A stretch of 64,000 nt of DNA from Marinifilum fragile JCM 15579 (lineage in GTDB: Bacteria; Bacteroidota; Bacteroidia; Bacteroidales; Marinifilaceae). Positions 10,727 through 30,115 of this stretch are shown one piece after another. The translations under genes and the position numbers were made by a program. Location: contig NZ_BAZX01000015.1 of the NCBI RefSeq assembly GCF_001310955.1, forward strand, positions 35,554 through 99,553. The letters run 5' to 3'. The notes under the pieces are model-generated. The model was not told the origin of the DNA. It saw only the letters and a program-made list of their open reading frames with translations, and ran no database searches. The stretch's first letter is position 1. Each line of letters starts with the position of its first letter.

Positions 10727-11272
10727 ATGAGTCGAAATTATAAATTTAGAGATCAGGAAAGCAGGTATTTCATAAGTTTTGCTACGGTACATTGGATAGA
10801 TGTATTTGTGAGACCACAATACAAAGACATACTTGTGGATAGTATAAATTATTGCATTAAAAATAAAGGCTTAATAGTATATGGATGGGTAATCATGACC
10901 AGTCATGTGCATATGATTATTGGTACTAAACAAGATAAGATGCAGGATATTGTTCGAGATCTAAAAAAATATACCTCAAAGGAAATCATTAAGGCTATTC
11001 GAGAGAATCCAAGAGAAAGCCGTAGGGATTGGATGTTGTGGATGTTTGAACGAGCAGGCAAGAAAAATGGGAACAACAAAAATATTCAGTTTTGGCAACA
11101 GAACAATAATCCTATTGAATTATCGGATAATAAGATTTTAGATCAGAAACTAAATTATTTACACAATAATCCCGTGGAAGAAGGATTTGTTGTTGAATGT
11201 CACGAATACAAGTATAGTAGCGCAATTGATTATGCCAATGGGACAGGATTAATAGATATTGTGCTGGTATAG
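10727..11272 (+). CDS. REP-associated tyrosine transposase (RAYT, Y1/HUH type)
   Basis: Single-strand HUH transposase of the IS200/IS605-related RAYT group, 181 residues. It has the metal-binding motif H60-V-H62 within MTSHVHMII, a candidate nucleophile Tyr82 in LKKYTSKEI, and the family tail YLHNNPVEEGFV. RAYTs are usually single-copy, domesticated enzymes that recognise and spread REP palindromes. Copies flank the gene on both sides and a third lies 1.2 kb upstream. The enzyme looks intact. Confidence 0.9.
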   Translation: MSRNYKFRDQESRYFISFATVHWIDVFVRPQYKDILVDSINYCIKNKGLIVYGWVIMTSHVHMIIGTKQDKMQDIVRDLKKYTSKEIIKAIRENPRESRRDWMLWMFERAGKKNGNNKNIQFWQQNNNPIELSDNKILDQKLNYLHNNPVEEGFVVECHEYKYSSAIDYANGTGLIDIVLV

Positions 11273-12377: not shown

Positions 12378-12814
12378 ATGACGAATAAGGATAACACTCC
12401 AATAATTACAGAACAAAGCTTCACCAAAAGCAAAGAAGAAGTATGGAAAGCCATTACCGATGCCAATGAAATGCGAAAATGGTTCTTCGCTGAGATGCCA
12501 GATCATAAGGCAGAAGTTGGTTTTACTACCCAATTTAATGTGGATGCTGGCGAAAGAGAGTTTATGCACTTGTGGAAAATTACTGAAGTGGTTCCAAAAG
12601 ATAAATTGGTTTGCCAATGGGAATATGAAGGGTACGACGGAGTTGCATGGTAACTTATGAACTATTTGAAGAAAATGAAGGTTGCAAAATTAGAGTAACA
12701 GCCACGGGTGTTGAGAGTTTCCCTAGTGATGTTCCCGAGTTCAGACGTGAAAGTTGTGAAGGTGGTTGGAAGTATTTTATCAACCAGAGATTAAAGGAGT
12801 ATTTGGAGAAATGA
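12378..12814 (+). pseudogene. SRPBCC / AHSA1-type START-domain protein, disrupted by a frameshift
   Basis: The first frame (ATG 12378 to stop 12653) gives EVWKAITDANEMRKWFFAE and ends at EGYDGVAW. The continuation lies in another frame from 12650 to the stop at 12814: VTYELFEENEGCKIRVT and EGGWKYFINQRLKEYLE, the standard C-terminal half of this family. Adding one G to TGG at 12649-12650 restores a single protein of about 145 residues. Such proteins bind small hydrophobic ligands. The stop overlaps the next ATG in an ATGA arrangement. Either a real lesion or an assembly error. Confidence 0.8.
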
Positions 12815-13617
12815 TGAAGCTGGTAAAATATTTGAGTCGATTTATAATATTCGTTCTTCTAACCATTATAACGCAAATAGGCGGATTGATCTATTTAATT
12901 AGTGTCGTTATAAACAATAAGATTAGGCTAACTTTTTGGGGTAAAAGGTTGGTGGTTTTTATGGTTTTATATGTCACAGTAAGCTTTCTGATTGTTCCTT
13001 TTGTTGCTCCATGGTTTGGAAGGGAGAAGATTAGAAATAATGATAATTTGCAAGCAGCAACTTTTGCAACAGTATTATTGAATCGTAACTATGTTACTTC
13101 TGAAACCCATGATTTTTTGCAGAATATTTCCCAAAATCTAGAGGAAAAGAAACCAGAAGTAAAGGCTCGATACTTGGATGCTTGTTTTCCATTTTTTGAT
13201 GGTTTTCCTTTGTTGCCACATTTGAGCCATAACGATGGTTGTAAGGTTGATTTTAGTTTGGTGTATGAAGATATCAATGGACAAATCGCAAATAAAAGCA
13301 AGTCTATAAGTGGATATGGAGTATTTGAAAATCCGTTAAGGAATGAGATTGATCAGTGCAAAGATTGTTTGCAAAAAGGATATTTTCAGTATGATTATCC
13401 AAAATATATGACCCTTGGAAGGATTAATGATGATATAAAGTTTTCTAAAAGTGGAACCAATGCCTTAATCGATGCTATTTTAAGTCAAAGAAAACTCACA
13501 AAGATGTTTATTGAGCCGCATTTGAAGCAGAGGCTAAAATTAGAGGATAAAAGAGTTAGGTTTCAAGGTTGCAGATCGGTGAGGCATGATGATCATATTC
13601 ATGTTCAGATAAATTAA
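12811..13617 (+). CDS. Membrane-anchored putative LAS/M74-like murein endopeptidase
   Basis: 268 residues from ATG 12811, which overlaps the preceding stop (ATGA). Two hydrophobic helices lie near 8-35 and 45-68, then an extracytoplasmic domain. Two motifs recall penicillin-insensitive murein endopeptidase MepA: SH140-N-D-G-C-K-V-D147, where the His and Asp are seven residues apart as in MepA, and a C-terminal DDHIHV with His259, His262 and His264. Together they could supply the zinc site of the LAS peptidase fold. Function and the call itself are inference from these motifs; overall similarity was not tested. Confidence 0.55.
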   Translation: MMKLVKYLSRFIIFVLLTIITQIGGLIYLISVVINNKIRLTFWGKRLVVFMVLYVTVSFLIVPFVAPWFGREKIRNNDNLQAATFATVLLNRNYVTSETHDFLQNISQNLEEKKPEVKARYLDACFPFFDGFPLLPHLSHNDGCKVDFSLVYEDINGQIANKSKSISGYGVFENPLRNEIDQCKDCLQKGYFQYDYPKYMTLGRINDDIKFSKSGTNALIDAILSQRKLTKMFIEPHLKQRLKLEDKRVRFQGCRSVRHDDHIHVQIN

Positions 13618-13618
13618 T

Positions 13619-13707
13619 AAAAAAATCCGGGTCCCCACCCGGATTTCAAATCTAACCACTAAATGTAACCCAAATCACTAATCTATGAAAAAAACTTCGC
13701 GTTTTTT
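13619..13707 (-). ncRNA. Putative small RNA unit A
   Basis: Minus-strand unit: TTAACA at 13753-13758, 31 bp, -7 box TACATTTG at 13714-13721, expected start near 13707, and a terminator with a perfect 10-bp stem (AAATCCGGGT / ACCCGGATTT, CCCC loop) and a seven-U tail at 13619-13646. The body of about 60 nt contains UUAGUGGUUAGA, the complement of TCTAACCACTAA. The same plan occurs twice more downstream. Expression is inferred. Confidence 0.6.
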
Positions 13708-13795
13708 ACAGTACAAATGTATGCTTGCTTACAGTGAATTGTTTTAAGCTGATGTTAAGTAATTATAATTTTATTGCTTGATACCATTGTATAAA

Positions 13796-13886
13796 AGAAA
13801 AATCCCAGACCAACTAGTCTGGGATTTTCTCTAACCACTAATTACTAACCTAAAATCTAACCTATGAAAAAACTTCTCTGTTTTGT
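13796..13886 (-). ncRNA. Putative small RNA unit B
   Basis: Minus-strand unit: TTAACA at 13932-13937, again 31 bp from the -7 box TACATTTG (13893-13900). The terminator has a perfect 11-bp stem (AAATCCCAGAC / GTCTGGGATTT) and an A-rich plus strand giving the U-tail. The body contains the complement of TCTAACCACTAATTACTAAC. The terminator stem sequence differs from unit A while its position is conserved, which suggests selection for the hairpin. Confidence 0.6.
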
Positions 13887-14107
13887 ATGATTCAAATGTA
13901 GTTGATTAAAGCGTTAAGCGAACTGAACAAATGTTAAAGAAATTTAATACCATTTAAATTTCAGTGTGAGCTGTAGGAGAAAACTTGAATTGAAATGTCG
14001 TGATATAATCAGTCAGCCATTGGGAGTCAAAAGGACTGATAACTTTAATGGATTAATAATTGGTTTAAATCTGACTTTTGGAAGGATTTGTTGGTGGATA
14101 TACAAAA

Positions 14108-14196
14108 GAAAAATCCCGAACGGGCGTCCGGGATTCTCTCTAACCACTAATTACTAACCTAAATCTTTAATCTATGAAAATACTATCTTTTATAGT
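14108..14196 (-). ncRNA. Putative small RNA unit C
   Basis: Minus-strand unit: TTAACA at 14242-14247, 31 bp, -7 box TACCTTTG at 14203-14210, and a terminator stem AATCCCG / CGGGATT (14112-14135) with a U-rich tail. The body is almost identical to unit B over TCTAACCACTAATTACTAAC. The gene-free DNA between units and on to 14485 is AT-rich and holds no ORF I would support. Confidence 0.6.
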
Positions 14197-14485
14197 ACAC
14201 TACAAAGGTATGGCAAGAATTGGTTAAGACCTGAGAATAAGTGTTAAAAAACCTTAAAGAAGTTTGATCTTCAAAGAGATGGCAACTTAATAGAGAGCTA
14301 TAGGTCTTTATTTGTGCGGGATTCAATGAATTTAAGGATAAAAAATTTTTTCAGTTGAAACTTAGAGCTTTAAATGATTTCTTTAGATAATGGTAAATAT
14401 CTCTTTAAAACAGGAGTTTCCATAGCTCATTTTATTTATCTAAATTAGGCCTTGTTAAAACCAAAATCAATTCCAAACCTAGACT

Positions 14486-17400
14486 ATGAATGAATCGTTA
14501 CTGAAAGCCTTAATGAGACTTTTTGCCATCATTGTTGATGAGCAAAAGCTGGGATTCGAAACAGCAGCACGTGATGTTGTTGAAGGGTGGCTTCAGAAAC
14601 AATTTAGCAAGGAGTGGACCGAAAAGTATCTACAGGATTTTGAGCGATATTTAAAGGATTCTCATTGCGATGAAACGGGAGAGGTTTGTTTTATAAACAA
14701 GCATCCACAAGTGAAAGATGTTTGTGAAAAATTGGTGGAGGAAGTAGAGCAGGAGCAGAAAGTTTGGATCATGCTTCAATTGCTCGAATTTATCGATGAA
14801 ACGGAATATACTGGTTACGATGAATTAGATTTGGTAAAAACGGTTTCAAAAACCTTTAATATTCCCAAAAAAGAGTTCGAATTAAGTCGACAATTTTTGA
14901 TTGGAGATGAACTGTCTATTCCTTTTAACGAACATCTGCTTTTAATTGACAATAGCGAGGATTGGTCGCATGAGGTGGTGAAACATATTCGGAGTGAGAA
15001 GCTTCGGGGAAGAATTTTTGTGCTGCATTTGGAAAGTACGAATACCTTCCTGATGAAATATTTTGGAGAGTATAACCTTTTCTTGAACGGACACAATATA
15101 AAAGTAGATAGAGCTTATCTTTTATCCTATGGTTCGGTTATTCGAAGTCATAGAATCGATCCGATTTATTACTCCCAGATTGCTTCCATTTATATTGAGA
15201 AGAAAAATCTCACCGATCTTCGGTTTATTGCAAAAAATATAGAATTCAAGTTCCCGGGTTCCAATAATGGAATTTATCCGGTTAGTTTGGAAATGAACTC
15301 TGGACAATTGGTTGGAGTGATGGGCGGTAGTGGTACCGGAAAATCTACTTTGCTAAATGTGTTAAATGGGAATTTATCCCTGCGTCAGGGAAATATCTAT
15401 ATCAATGGCTATGACCTTCATTTGGATAAAGATAAACTTGAGGGGGTTATTGGATATGTCCCGCAAGATGACTTGTTGGTTGAAGAACTAACGGTTTACG
15501 AGAACCTGTATTTTAATGCCAAACTTTGTTTTGATGGTACTTCGGATAAGAAAATAGAAGAAATCATAAACAAAACCATTGAGGATTTTGACTTGGTAGA
15601 AGCCAGGAATTTAAAGGTTGGTGATCCGATTAATAAAGTGCTGAGTGGAGGACAAAGAAAGCGATTAAATATTGCATTGGAGTTAATGCGCGAACCTTCG
15701 GTTCTCCTGGTTGATGAACCCACCTCAGGCTTATCCAGTATGGATTCCGAAAAGGTAATGATTCTTCTAAAACGTCAGGTTTTGAAAGGAAAATTGGTGA
15801 TTTGTAACATTCATCAACCTTCGTCTGATATTTTTAAACTTTTGGATAAGCTAATCATGATGGATCAAGGAGGCAAGGTAATCTACTTTGGGAATCCGAT
15901 TGATGCTGTTGTTTATTTTAAAACCCAATCGCATTACGTAAAGGCCAACGAAAGTGAGTGTTTAACTTGTGGTAACGTTAACTCCGAACAGATTTTACGA
16001 ATTGTTGAGGCCAGAATGATGAACGAATATGGCAAGCAAATTCGTAAGCGCAAAAGAAGTTCAGATGATTGGTACGAACTCTATAAAGAGAATATTGAGA
16101 AGAAGAACAAGGTACATGGTTCTGGCAGAAAAAAATTGATACCCAAGAACTTTTTTAGCATCCCAAAGCGTTGGGAGCAATTGAAAATTTATCTTACCAG
16201 AGACTTTAAAGCCAAACTGAGTAACAGACAGTACATGCTGATTACCTTGTTGGAGGCACCACTTTTAGCCATAATTTTGGGATATTTTACCAAATACATT
16301 AGTGGTTCTGAATCCGATCATTTGGACTATGTATTTGCGAAGAATGAAAATATTCCCTCTTTTATTTTCATGGCTGTTGTTGTTGCTTTATTCCTTGGTT
16401 TGATTATTTCGGCAGAAGAAATTCTTCACGACCGAAGAATGATGAAGCGCGAGAAATTCCTGAATTTGAGTCGATGGAGCTATTTAAACTCCAAAGTCAT
16501 TATTATGTTGATTATTTCGGCAATACAGAGTTTTTTATTTGTTATTTTAGCTACCTACATTTTGGAAATTAAAGGCCTAACCTGGGAGTATTGGTTAATC
16601 CTGTATACGGCTTCGTCATGTGCCAATTTAATTGGCTTAAACCTGTCTGCTGGATTGAATTCTGTGGTAGCTGTTTATGTATCCATACCATTTATTTTGG
16701 TCCCGCAATTGCTGTTCTCAGGAGTCATTGTGAACTTTAACAAATTGCATCCTGCCATTACAACAAAAAAGTATGTTCCAATCGTTGGAGATTTAATGAC
16801 TTCACGATGGGCTTACGAGGCTTTGGTGGTTGAGCAATTTAAGAACAATCAATTTGAGAAGCAGTTTTTTCCATATGAGAAAGCGATGAGTGAATCGTCT
16901 TTTCGTTCATCCTTCCTGATTCCGGCCATGCAGCAAAGCTATAAATCATGGTTAAAGGAAAATAACGACAAACATTATAGAGTTTTTAAAAACGAACTGT
17001 TAAAGCTTTCAGATATTTATGCCTTTCCAACAGACTTGGAAGTAACTAAACGAGTTTTGCGAGATTCTTCGGCAAGAGTGCAAACCTGGCTCGAGCATGT
17101 TAAGCAAGCAGGCTGGAAAGAATATAAAGAACAATCAAATCATAGAGATCAGGTTTACGAAGAGATTATTGATGAACTTGGCGACAGAAAGAAAATTATT
17201 GAATACAAAAATACCCATCACAACGAGGCTATTGAGCAAATCGTAACCAACAGAAGAGAAATTAATAAGTTGATAAGGTATAAGGATGAATTTATTCAAC
17301 TAAAAGATCCTGTTTTTCAAACTCCCATTAGTCAAAATGGGCGAGCTCAGCTGTTTGCCTCACAAAAGCGACTTGGCAATTATTTAATTGATACATTTTG

Positions 17401-17554
17401 GTTCAATGTTACAATTATTTGGTTAACAACAATCATTTTTTATTTCTCCTTGTACTTTGATGTACTGCGCAGATTCCTATTGCTAATTGAAATTTTATGG
17501 GTGACCATATTGCCTGAAGGAGATATCAGAATTAGAAGAAAACGTCAGAAATAA
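14486..17554 (+). CDS. ABCG-like ABC transporter (fused ATPase and permease) with a helical N-terminal domain
   Basis: Large inner-membrane protein of 1022 residues. The N-terminal 200 residues are helical and resemble a TerB-like domain. The ABC domain follows: Walker A GGSGTGKST near 279, signature LSGGQRKRL near 385, Walker B VLLVDEPTSGL near 407, with the ABCG-style helical insert and CNIHQPSSDIF. A linker has the cysteine pair ECLTC (about 494-498). About six membrane helices run from 580 to 770, then a long hydrophilic segment (about 800-950) and a last hydrophobic helix near 975-995. Substrate unknown. The order ATPase before permease is that of eukaryotic ABCG/White half transporters. 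Its leader CCAAACCTAGACT is typical for the phylum. Confidence 0.85.
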   Translation: MNESLLKALMRLFAIIVDEQKLGFETAARDVVEGWLQKQFSKEWTEKYLQDFERYLKDSHCDETGEVCFINKHPQVKDVCEKLVEEVEQEQKVWIMLQLLEFIDETEYTGYDELDLVKTVSKTFNIPKKEFELSRQFLIGDELSIPFNEHLLLIDNSEDWSHEVVKHIRSEKLRGRIFVLHLESTNTFLMKYFGEYNLFLNGHNIKVDRAYLLSYGSVIRSHRIDPIYYSQIASIYIEKKNLTDLRFIAKNIEFKFPGSNNGIYPVSLEMNSGQLVGVMGGSGTGKSTLLNVLNGNLSLRQGNIYINGYDLHLDKDKLEGVIGYVPQDDLLVEELTVYENLYFNAKLCFDGTSDKKIEEIINKTIEDFDLVEARNLKVGDPINKVLSGGQRKRLNIALELMREPSVLLVDEPTSGLSSMDSEKVMILLKRQVLKGKLVICNIHQPSSDIFKLLDKLIMMDQGGKVIYFGNPIDAVVYFKTQSHYVKANESECLTCGNVNSEQILRIVEARMMNEYGKQIRKRKRSSDDWYELYKENIEKKNKVHGSGRKKLIPKNFFSIPKRWEQLKIYLTRDFKAKLSNRQYMLITLLEAPLLAIILGYFTKYISGSESDHLDYVFAKNENIPSFIFMAVVVALFLGLIISAEEILHDRRMMKREKFLNLSRWSYLNSKVIIMLIISAIQSFLFVILATYILEIKGLTWEYWLILYTASSCANLIGLNLSAGLNSVVAVYVSIPFILVPQLLFSGVIVNFNKLHPAITTKKYVPIVGDLMTSRWAYEALVVEQFKNNQFEKQFFPYEKAMSESSFRSSFLIPAMQQSYKSWLKENNDKHYRVFKNELLKLSDIYAFPTDLEVTKRVLRDSSARVQTWLEHVKQAGWKEYKEQSNHRDQVYEEIIDELGDRKKIIEYKNTHHNEAIEQIVTNRREINKLIRYKDEFIQLKDPVFQTPISQNGRAQLFASQKRLGNYLIDTFWFNVTIIWLTTIIFYFSLYFDVLRRFLLLIEILWVTILPEGDIRIRRKRQK

Positions 17555-17658: not shown

Positions 17659-20600
17659 ATGAAAAAATTAATTACAATATTCCTTTTGTTGTTTATCACA
17701 TCTAGCCTTTTTGCGGATAAAAAGCAACTCATTCAGTATGTCGATCCCATGATTGGAACCGATGGTCATGCCCACACATTTCCGGGGGCAACTTTACCTT
17801 TTGGTATGGTGCAGCTAAGTCCAAGTAATGATTTTAAAGCTTGGGATTGGTGTTCGGGTTATCACTATAGCGATTCCATATTAAAAGGGTTTGCCCATAC
17901 CCATATTAGTGGAGCTGGTTTGGCTGGATTGGGTGATATTTTGTTGATGCCAACTTTAGGTGAAACAAAGATACAAGCGGGTTCAGAAGAAGATCCGGAT
18001 AGTGGATTTCGCTCCAGATTTTCTCATGAAAAAGAGAAAGCTTCTGCAGGCTATTATTCTGTTGTTCTGGATGATTACGATGTAAAAGTTGAATTGACTT
18101 GTACACCCAGAGTTGGGTTTCATAGATATACTTTCAATACTGCCGGGCAAGGAAATGTAATTCTTGATCCTACTCACAATATCATGGAAAATGTTCAGGC
18201 AACGGAAATTGAGATCTTATCGGATACGGAAATTAGAGGTTGGAAACACTGCAATGGTGAAGGAGGAGATAGAAAAGTGTATTTCTATGCAAATTTTTCA
18301 AAAGCATTCGAACAAAGTGGTGTTGCCATTGATGATCAAATTCAAACTGGTACAAAGAAAGCAACCGCCAAAAGAGTGAAAGGTTTCGTTAGTTTTGATG
18401 TGAATTCAGGAGAAAGCGTTGAAGTTAAGGTTGCACTTTCACACGTGAGTTATGAAGGAGCCAAAGCCAATTTCGATATTGAAGCAGAAGATATTTCATT
18501 TGATCAGACACTAAGCAAAGCTCAGAAACTTTGGGAAGATAAAATGAACAAGTTTCATATCGAAACGGATAAATTATCAGACAAGAGAAACTTCTACACT
18601 GCTCTTTATCATTCCATGATATCACCAAACTTGATTTCGGATGTTACCGGAGAATATATGGTGGAAGGAAAAAAATACCATTCTGATTTCGATCAATACA
18701 GCAACTTTTCTACTTGGGATACCTACCGTGCTGTTCATCCTTTAATGGCAATTGTGGAGCAAAAGAAAACCGTTGATTTTGTGAATTCGCTCTCATCAAG
18801 ATACACCGATTCAAAAGTTGGTTTGCCAGTATGGGAATGCCTTGGGCACGATAATGTTTGTATGATAGGATACAGCACCGTTTCGGTTATGTCTGATGCC
18901 ATATTGAAAGATATTGAGGGAATCGACAATCAGGCTGCCTATGATGCGATGAAAGCAGCAGCTTTTAATCTGGAAAAGCATAGTAATAGTTACGATGTAA
19001 ATGGAATGAACTTTTATATCGATATGGATTTTGTTCCGGGTGAAATTGGAAGTTCTGTTTCGAAAACAACTGAATACAATTACTATGATTGGTGTTTGAG
19101 TCAGGTGGCTCATAAACTAGGAAAGACTGAAGACTCCTACCTTTTCCAGCAAAGATCGAAAGGATATCGTAATTTATTTGATGAAAAATCAGGCTACCTT
19201 TTGCCTAAACTGCAGAATGGTAAATTGGTGAATGTGGACAAAAGCAAGTGGGATGGATTGGTGAAGAACTATGTGTCGGGTAACATTTGGGGATACTCTT
19301 CTTATGTGCCTCACGATATGACTTACTTAATGCAATTGCACGGAGGCAAGGGGAAGTTTGCATCTTGGCTGGATGAAATCTTTGCTGATGATTCTGAAAT
19401 TGGAGGTTCACAGCATGTAGACATTTCTGGTTTTATTGGGAAATATGGTCATGGAGATGAACCATCCCATCAGATGCCTTACTTGTATGTTTATGCTGGT
19501 CAGCCATGGAAAACTCAGAAGTTGGTAAGAGAAATTCTTCCTCGCTTTTATCATGATCATCCTGCAGGCCTGGATAATAATGATGATTTGGGTCAAATGT
19601 CATCCTGGTATATTTTTGGATCTTTGGGATTTTATCCTGTTTGTCCGGGTAGTAACCAGTATCAAATTGGATCTCCAGCCTATCAAAAAGCAAGTATTAA
19701 TCTTGAGAATGGTAAGGTATTTACAGTTGTAGCCCATGACAATTCCGAAAAGAACATTTTCATTCAATCGGCAAAACTAAATGGAAAAGAATTTACCAAA
19801 CCATTTATTACTTACGATCAAATTAAAAATGGAGGTGAGCTGGTTTTCGAAATGGGCAGTAAACCGAATAAATCATGGGGGAATTCAAAAGCTGATTTGA
19901 ATGAACTAAATGGTATGAAAATCTCAAAGGAGTACAAGTTGCACGAAGAGAAACAGGTTCTAATGCCTTACGTTAATGATATTGCTTTTAGTTTTGAGAA
20001 GAGTAAAATGGTAGAATTGCTTTGTGGTACAAATGGGGCCGAAATCAGATATACAATGGATGGTTCTGAACCCAATGCGAATTCTGAGAAATATAAGAAA
20101 CCAGTAGTGATTAGTAAGGATGCTACTATTAATGCTAAAGCATTCAAAGCTGGGCTAAAGGAGAGTGGAAGTTTACAGTTGCATTACCTAAAAGGAATTC
20201 CATTTAACTCCCAAACAGGCTATCCAAAAGTTAAGGTTGAAGGCAAAGATATTGGTTATGGTGAAAAATCAGGAGCTCAACTCATAGATGGCGGCTTTGG
20301 CTCAACAACCTTTAATGATGGATTTTGGACGGGTATAGACTTGAAAGATCTAGATGTTGATATTGATCTGGGGGAATCCAGAACCATTTGTGAAGTAAAA
20401 CCTGGAATTCTAATTTATCCAGGAGCATGGATCTTTAATCCGGATGAAATCGAAGTATATGTTTCAAATGATCAAAAGAACTACCGACTGGTAAAAAATA
20501 TAAACTTGGAATCTCCAAAAGATGAGCGCAGATATGTAACAAGACCTGCGATTGAATTTCCATCGGTTAATTGCCGTTACTTAAGAATAACATTCAAAAA

Positions 20601-20676
20601 CGGACCAATACCAGATTGGCACATGGCGGGAGGTCGAAAGCATTGGATTTTTGTTGACGAAATTCTAATCAATTAA
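17659..20676 (+). CDS. GH92 family alpha-mannosidase with C-terminal accessory domains
   Basis: Secreted glycosidase of 1005 residues (signal peptide 1-19, cleavage after SLFA). The GH92 catalytic module covers about 25-750: start YVDPMIGTDGHAHTFPGATLPFGMVQLSP, the catalytic-acid region GHGDEPSHQMPYLY and the DDLGQMSSWYIFGSLGFYPVCPG signature are visible. GH92 enzymes are calcium-dependent, inverting exo-alpha-mannosidases, mostly alpha-1,2. A chitobiase C-terminal-like segment (EIRYTMDGSEPN, about 790-850) and a discoidin-like F5/8C domain (about 870-1005) probably help bind glycans. Paired with the GH47 gene downstream through a shared motif. Confidence 0.95.
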   Translation: MKKLITIFLLLFITSSLFADKKQLIQYVDPMIGTDGHAHTFPGATLPFGMVQLSPSNDFKAWDWCSGYHYSDSILKGFAHTHISGAGLAGLGDILLMPTLGETKIQAGSEEDPDSGFRSRFSHEKEKASAGYYSVVLDDYDVKVELTCTPRVGFHRYTFNTAGQGNVILDPTHNIMENVQATEIEILSDTEIRGWKHCNGEGGDRKVYFYANFSKAFEQSGVAIDDQIQTGTKKATAKRVKGFVSFDVNSGESVEVKVALSHVSYEGAKANFDIEAEDISFDQTLSKAQKLWEDKMNKFHIETDKLSDKRNFYTALYHSMISPNLISDVTGEYMVEGKKYHSDFDQYSNFSTWDTYRAVHPLMAIVEQKKTVDFVNSLSSRYTDSKVGLPVWECLGHDNVCMIGYSTVSVMSDAILKDIEGIDNQAAYDAMKAAAFNLEKHSNSYDVNGMNFYIDMDFVPGEIGSSVSKTTEYNYYDWCLSQVAHKLGKTEDSYLFQQRSKGYRNLFDEKSGYLLPKLQNGKLVNVDKSKWDGLVKNYVSGNIWGYSSYVPHDMTYLMQLHGGKGKFASWLDEIFADDSEIGGSQHVDISGFIGKYGHGDEPSHQMPYLYVYAGQPWKTQKLVREILPRFYHDHPAGLDNNDDLGQMSSWYIFGSLGFYPVCPGSNQYQIGSPAYQKASINLENGKVFTVVAHDNSEKNIFIQSAKLNGKEFTKPFITYDQIKNGGELVFEMGSKPNKSWGNSKADLNELNGMKISKEYKLHEEKQVLMPYVNDIAFSFEKSKMVELLCGTNGAEIRYTMDGSEPNANSEKYKKPVVISKDATINAKAFKAGLKESGSLQLHYLKGIPFNSQTGYPKVKVEGKDIGYGEKSGAQLIDGGFGSTTFNDGFWTGIDLKDLDVDIDLGESRTICEVKPGILIYPGAWIFNPDEIEVYVSNDQKNYRLVKNINLESPKDERRYVTRPAIEFPSVNCRYLRITFKNGPIPDWHMAGGRKHWIFVDEILIN

Positions 20677-30007: not shown

Positions 30008-30115
30008 AACTTTACTAATCACACAATTGATTTTCTTGTTGTTAAACAAGTAAAATCTAACCACTAACTAATCGCTAACAATTGAAGCTTCGCATTTGCG
30101 AGGCCTTTATTGTTT
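30008..30115 (+). ncRNA. Short leader-like plus-strand unit with terminator
   Basis: Hairpin CTTGTT-GTTA-AACAAG (about 30035-30050), the leader motif TCTAACCACTAA at 30056-30067, and a GCTTCGC / GCGAGGC stem with a T-rich tail (30087-30115). The 12-mer is identical to the sense strand of the three small-RNA units at 13.6-14.2 kb. It could be a premature-termination leader or a small RNA. The start is uncertain. The remaining gene-free DNA to 30428 shows no ORF; it is likely the citD promoter region. Confidence 0.4.

Follow-up and report, generated by a model that had tools for sequence, protein, structure and literature searches.

The locus raises the question of what three similar minus-strand blocks, arranged in tandem between two protein-coding genes of Marinifilum fragile JCM 15579, encode and what their products act on. 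The window analyzed is a stretch of 64,000 nucleotides (assembly GCF_001310955.1, contig NZ_BAZX01000015.1, positions 35,554 to 99,553), and all coordinates below are positions in it unless another locus is named. A preliminary description took the blocks for orphan, amplified DonS-like RNAs that could act in trans on many susC leaders. As judged from the sequence, the three units probably encode FopS-like small RNAs of about 90 nt that bind the start regions of SusC-type mRNAs in trans and block ribosome entry.

Layout and neighborhood of the three units

Each unit consists on the minus strand of the parts claimed for it earlier, namely TTAACA and, after exactly 31 bp, TAnnTTTG, followed by a body and a terminator, an arrangement that was found again when the letters were re-read. 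For the searches a covariance model (model R1) was built from 10 units of the M. fragile genome with the promoter left out, and the three units are among its training rows. Unit A, a predicted FopS-like sRNA of about 90 nt whose ends are predicted, occupies 13617..13707 (model R1, 67.9 bits, E 2.6e-10; the Rfam FopS family RF04319, 22.9 bits over positions 1-71; fold z -2.94). The corresponding prediction for unit B lies at 13797..13886 (model R1, 105.3 bits; RF04319, 29.3 bits over 1-71; fold z -2.68) and that for unit C at 14104..14196 (93.1 bits; 23.5 bits over 1-71; fold z -2.73), all on the minus strand.

A terminator scan placed the hairpin of unit A at 13622-13647, that of unit B at 13798-13829 and that of unit C at 14109-14138, again on the minus strand; between 13500 and 14500 it found 3 terminator-like sites, against 0.3 expected in shuffles. 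The terminators of the preliminary description are present, but their stems, given there as 10, 11 and 7 bp, count 11, 14 and 13 pairs in the scan with G-U pairs included. In the folds of the units the 5' part forms small weak helices only, and the terminator is the only strong stem. The body of about 55 nt holds the complement of the 12-mer TCTAACCACTAA (plus-strand 13651, 13830 and 14139). A fourth TCTAACCACTAA, at 30056-30067, is intergenic, does not lie at a start codon and has no model R1 match. Reading frames that open with ATG on the plus strand, at 13685, 13864 and 14174, stop after 20, 8 and 17 codons and are unlike each other, and are therefore best read, from their letters, as the complement of the seed.

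The array is bordered by a plus-strand ABC-2 type transporter gene (14486..17554; Pfam PF00005, PF01061), which is divergent from it and serves as its anchor in other genera, and by a plus-strand gene (12766..13617) that runs towards unit A, convergent with it; this gene has no Pfam match and probably encodes a membrane protein. It is retained beside the array in sister species, where pieces of 51-54 residues are 92-98% identical (L147, L150 and L151). None of the seven flanking proteins scanned is a SusC. Beyond the transporter gene, positions 17659-20676 encode a protein of glycosyl hydrolase family 92 whose C-terminal parts are chitobiase-like. An IS200-like (Y1_Tnp) transposase gene is located at 10727-11269, about 2.3 kb from the array. 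It was considered as a mobilizer and set aside, its protein being without a tblastn match at 1e-5 in the other loci, which is weak evidence given the short flanks.

Copy number and signs of selection

The amplification proposed earlier was borne out by searches with model R1 of genus and family genomes, which returned many copies, often in tandem. At E<=0.01 model R1 hits 12 places in the M. fragile genome, 10 of which had served as training rows; the counts in the four remaining genomes of the genus are 16, 10, 14 and 10. In the family, 47 of 56 genomes carry a match, 25 have two or more hits and 17 have eight or more, tandem arrangement again being frequent. Seven genera have two or more copies throughout; an eighth has them in a single genome, G063. 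The exact seed pattern gave 15 stretches in the genome collection, all from Marinifilum; with regard to phage carriage, it gave 0 exact matches in viral_contigs, where the exact pattern only was searched. Among the papers searched, none described FopS-like RNAs from Marinifilum.

At the site of the array the number of model R1 hits is 2 in G001 and in G002, 3 in M. fragile and in G003, 4 in G009, 5 in G012 and 6 in G015, and the contig of G004 holds 1. A homologue of the ABC transporter adjoins the array in G009 (77% identity), G015 (72%) and G012 (a 51-residue piece). Because the transporter stands beside the array while the counts differ, the site is common to four genera and its copy number turns over. 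One site with 2 to 6 copies across species constitutes a natural dosage series.

Drift with preserved pairing had been taken as a sign of selection, and the terminators agree with this. Over 121 distinct aligned hits, 95.0% of the cells of the stem are paired, compared with 40-67% in slid controls, and 14 of the 15 pairs have changes on both sides. The same three-unit array is present in another Marinifilum genome (G003, L147), with promoter and RNA identities of 158/159 for unit C, 154/159 for B and 149/153 for A (97-99%), versus 126/151 in the C-B spacer and 173/222 upstream of C (78-83%). The short B-A spacer of 20 nt is identical at 19/20 positions.

Some copies elsewhere are built differently. 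In two genera a FopS-like unit has an extra stretch between two TTTTCATA-like seed starts (L138:335-438 and L154:156-258) and is perhaps a two-seed variant. At five places (L032:1671-1764, L159:184-278, L163:180-272, L164:322-415 and L165:326-418) a second, weak R1-type unit adjoins a FopS-like copy; these second units have a different seed and no TAnnTTTG in the usual place.

A composite promoter

The promoters of the three units lie on the minus strand, and their boxes are counted here from the TA of the -7 box (TAnnTTTG). The promoter of unit B (13893..13937) comprises TACATTTG at 13893-13900, TTAAC at -17 (13913-13917) and TTAACA at -37 (13932-13937), and that of unit C (14203..14247) comprises TACCTTTG at 14203-14210, TTAAC at -17 (14223-14227) and TTAACA at -37 (14242-14247), both with 0 mismatches to a composite pattern. 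The promoter of unit A (13714..13758) has TACATTTG at 13714-13721, TTAACA at 13753-13758 and a diverged -17 box, TTCAC, amounting to 2 mismatches.

For a wider set, the 6 weakest of 127 model R1 hits were dropped; of the remaining 121, 3 were too short and 23 had no TAnnTTTG within 40 nt, leaving 95 promoters, of which 86 are distinct. TTAAC starts exactly 37 bases before the TA in 79 of these 86. Model R1 contains no promoter letters, and the promoter is therefore beyond chance. TTAAC or TTAGC occupies -17 in 73/86, and the -37 and -17 boxes occur together in 73/86; further boxes, one of TTTTAA type near -48 and a faint one near -27, complete a phase of 10-11 bp. With respect to the sigma-ABfr promoter, the -7 part TAnnTTTG is present in all three units. 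At the place of its -33 part, TTTG was found in 0/86 distinct promoters and TTG in 3/86. In Bacteroides-type FopS copies the corresponding counts are only 6/30 for TTTG and 16/30 for TTG.

Searched across the M. fragile genome, TTTAAC-15-TTAAC-12-TAnnTTTG matches exactly at 5 places, each at a model R1 hit. With one mismatch there are 2 more, one at a model R1 hit and one at C28:58474, and two mismatches add 13 further places, 6 of them at model R1 hits; a reversed control of the pattern gave 11 places in all. The stretch on C28 (L194:1501-1631, or G000:C28:58474-58604) has the composite promoter with 1 mismatch and no FopS-like body, and lies 85 bases from the contig end. A hairpin and a T-run can be seen by eye, where the terminator scan made no call. 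The stretch may encode another sRNA that is controlled in the same way.

TTAAC occurs within 60 bases in only 5 of the 30 Bacteroides-type FopS copies, at no fixed position, and the composite promoter is therefore a feature of the Marinifilum-side lineage. Five single copies from other genera have TTAAC at -38 and -27 instead (L177, L178, L179, L181 and L184). In one genome (G020) the TTAAC promoter of two FopS-like units (L186 and L187) lies at least some 60 nt further upstream, and a long 5' extension is predicted. Among the Bacteroides-type promoters (L209-L238), 12/30 contain, no more than 45 bases from the -7 box, an ATGTT..AACAT palindrome that may be an activator site.

The 10-11-bp phasing of the TTAAC boxes resembles the Pho boxes of other phyla. 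Phosphate control of the PhoB type was nevertheless not supported, as the region upstream of pstS shows by eye 11-bp repeats of the TGTAACATT type without the TTAAC pair at -37/-17. These repeats, at 11-bp steps in L208:2650-2702, are perhaps a phosphate-control site of the genus Marinifilum. As a guess, the regulator of the TTAAC promoter may be a response regulator of the PhoB-type general class or of the LytTR class.

Kinship, predicted targets and proposed mode of action

A default Rfam search of the whole window found nothing, and at E up to 1 it still returned no FopS. When the array alone was searched at a relaxed threshold, each of the three units aligned along positions 1-71 of RF04319 on the minus strand, with scores of 22.9-29.3 bits, far below the gathering cut-off of 56. 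Other families score alike on the array at a loose threshold (GibS 32.8 and MicC 30.9 bits, on the other strand), so that the RF04319 match alone is insufficient. Across the M. fragile genome 0/24 RF04319 places exceed the cut-off of 56, the best scoring 36.3. Nine of the 14 places with E below 0.6 are model R1 hits, B and C included, several in tandem; the remaining five are not, and some of these are ordinary gene starts read antisense. The loose search also matches in 8/14 control genomes. The reverse test used 30 loci from across the order with strong RF04319 hits; in 26 of them model R1 recovered the FopS place, each weakly (E 0.006-0.85) and among 31 matches in 90 kb. A genome of another family (G036) scores, taken as a whole, with both models, and one of its model R1 hits (L182) has TTAAC at -37 and -17. 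On these sequence comparisons we read the units as probable homologues of FopS and file them as FopS-like, not as FopS.

Targeting was judged by duplex energies at SusC starts and not by the 12-mer. The targets were the 30 best of 49 SusC-profile matches in the M. fragile genome, pieces included, each taken from -40 to +25 around the first in-frame ATG, and the energies were computed for the 5' part of each of the three units and of one additional copy. As background served 94 other gene starts, after 44 of 138 had been left out (loci fetched through the FopS/R1 searches). The median energy at SusC versus other starts was -24.9 vs -16.9 for A, -22.2 vs -15.9 for B and -19.0 vs -14.3 for C (p 1e-10 to 4e-6). 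The gap persists when the comparison is confined to matched starts of the ATGAAAA/ATGAGAAA kind (for A, -26.7 at 17 SusC starts against -18.0 at 22 others) and with -40..-1 alone (p 0.001-0.002). In seed controls against all 138 background starts, reversed seeds left a gap of 0.3-1.2 kcal/mol and shuffled seeds about 0. The predicted duplexes, which are long and gapped and whose energies ignore the folding of either partner, span the ATG in 30/30 (A), 28/30 (B) and 30/30 (C) SusC starts, and lie beyond the 5% point of the background in only 21/30, 11/30 and 9/30, respectively. Three more divergent copies of the same genome gave the same trend, more weakly. The pairing may partly reflect leader style, because SusC leaders share CTAA-rich tracts. 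For unit A, the energy difference A minus B was -4.8 kcal/mol at 12 SusC genes with a long N-terminus and -1.3 at 18 others (p 0.011), an exploratory comparison made after the numbers had been seen. This SusC type, assigned by N-terminal length only, we take to be STN-like.

A precedent exists in FopS-10 and susC BT_3983, for which PMC11697453 reports EMSA, in-line probing and in-vitro translation, with pairing blocking translation in vitro. Because of this precedent and of the preference for SusC starts, translational repression in trans is proposed here.

FopS has been described from Bacteroidaceae, where it forms a circuit with RbpB, an RRM protein that opposes FopS in B. thetaiotaomicron (PMC11697453). 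At E<=1e-5 the RRM_1 profile found no match in the M. fragile genome (assembly 94% complete) and, among the same 56 family genomes, in 0/25 of those with two or more model R1 hits, a result from one profile on draft assemblies. A match was found in 28 of the 31 other family genomes, the exceptions being G047, G065 and G066. The RRM matches fall in 10 genera and the split follows genera closely, so that these are not 56 independent cases; it likely reflects one or few events on the tree. Hfq was found in 0/38 relatives. In Bacteroides ihuae, a control genome, the RRM_1 and FopS-type RNA searches both match.

As far as the sequences tell, the units most likely belong to a lineage-specific FopS-type repressor set working without RbpB. 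Transcription would start from the TAnnTTTG site, and an activator on the TTAAC boxes, which follow one another in phase at steps of about 10-11 bp (near -48, -37 and -17, and weakly near -27), would make the copies fire together. The 5' 45-55 nt would act as the seed, by analogy with R1' in FopS, and its pairing at SusC starts would repress translation in trans. Repeated units would provide dosage, and small differences between the seeds may split the SusC repertoire among the copies, as the exploratory result for unit A suggests. Because no RRM protein was found, the SusC network of the Marinifilum lineage would run without RbpB. A further-reaching version, offered tentatively, is that this RbpB-free network is wired to one dedicated activator through a TTAAC promoter that serves sRNAs almost alone, and that a dozen RNAs set the translation of the whole SusC repertoire as one regulon, with sub-types such as A aimed at receptors with the long STN-like N-terminus. 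Two points would surprise a specialist, the lineage-specific promoter and the setting without RbpB. A related multi-copy set in a lineage without an RRM or Hfq match would show that the sRNA arm can work alone or with another partner, and comparison with such a lineage would make what RbpB adds directly testable. The composite promoter offers a way towards the signal behind these RNAs.

The kinship could be questioned on the ground that resemblance to FopS is to be expected of any RNA complementary to the consensus of Bacteroidota gene starts (CTAA-tracts, then ATGAAAAAA), in which case unrelated sRNAs would have converged by acquiring a FopS-like seed. This would fit the facts that the shared part is the seed, that the RF04319 scores stay below the Rfam cut-off, that the Bacteroides-type promoters differ and that five of the 14 RF04319 places are not model R1 hits, some being antisense to ordinary starts. 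We nevertheless regard convergence as unlikely, since the parts come in the same order at similar distances from the -7 box, the matches cover the full length whichever way the search is run, and G036, from another family, scores as a genome with both models and has both TTAAC boxes in L182. The role of the RNAs could likewise be another one, with a protein or another RNA as the thing titrated and the SusC pairing incidental. Twelve copies with conserved promoters do suggest bulk dosage, and there is no known chaperone in the Marinifilum lineage; the preference of the seed for SusC starts, with its controls, and the tested FopS precedent in PMC11697453 make titration as the main function distinctly improbable.

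Least probable by far is an origin as DonS-like cis-antisense RNAs or as remnants of duplicated susC leaders, even though the plus strand of each unit resembles a leader with its start codon. DonS RNAs are cis-antisense and encoded divergently to susC homologues, according to PMC7366714, whereas the neighbors of the array are the gene of no known family and the ABC transporter, with no SusC among the seven flanking proteins scanned. Remnants would not explain why the promoter (TTAAC at -37 in 79/86), the seed and the terminator (covarying in 14/15 pairs) are kept while the longer spacers drift, nor why the plus-strand frames stop early and differ. What stands of the preliminary proposal is thus that the RNAs are amplified, selected, equipped with promoter and terminator and, by duplex energies, predicted to act in trans on susC starts. 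Kinship with DonS was abandoned, as the seed, layout and copy number are of the FopS type.

Among known systems, LhrC1-7, Qrr and other multi-copy sRNA sets also have several copies with overlapping targets, as stated in PMC11697453, but belong to other phyla and have other seeds. DonS of B. fragilis shares with the Marinifilum units that it is a small RNA linked to susC start regions; it is encoded divergently to its own susC, as PMC7366714 describes it, whereas no susC was found beside the array. GibS (Rfam RF04182) has a similar, R1-like 5' start, but its minus-strand matches reach only 24.8 bits (B) and 18.4 bits (C) against a cut-off of 115, and the units seem too short for its second seed and internal stem. 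From FopS the units differ in scoring below the family cut-off, in about 15 extra nt (GUAAAUAGUGGUUAG) between seed and terminator, in the TTAAC composite promoter, in tandem arrays that reach 6 copies at a single site, and in the lack of an RRM match in the 25 multi-copy genomes of the family. With FopS they share the multi-copy state, a 5' seed of like sequence (GUUUUUUCAUAG-AUUAGAUUUAGGUUA) followed by one terminator hairpin, TAnnTTTG at -7 and, by prediction, the SusC start region as target.
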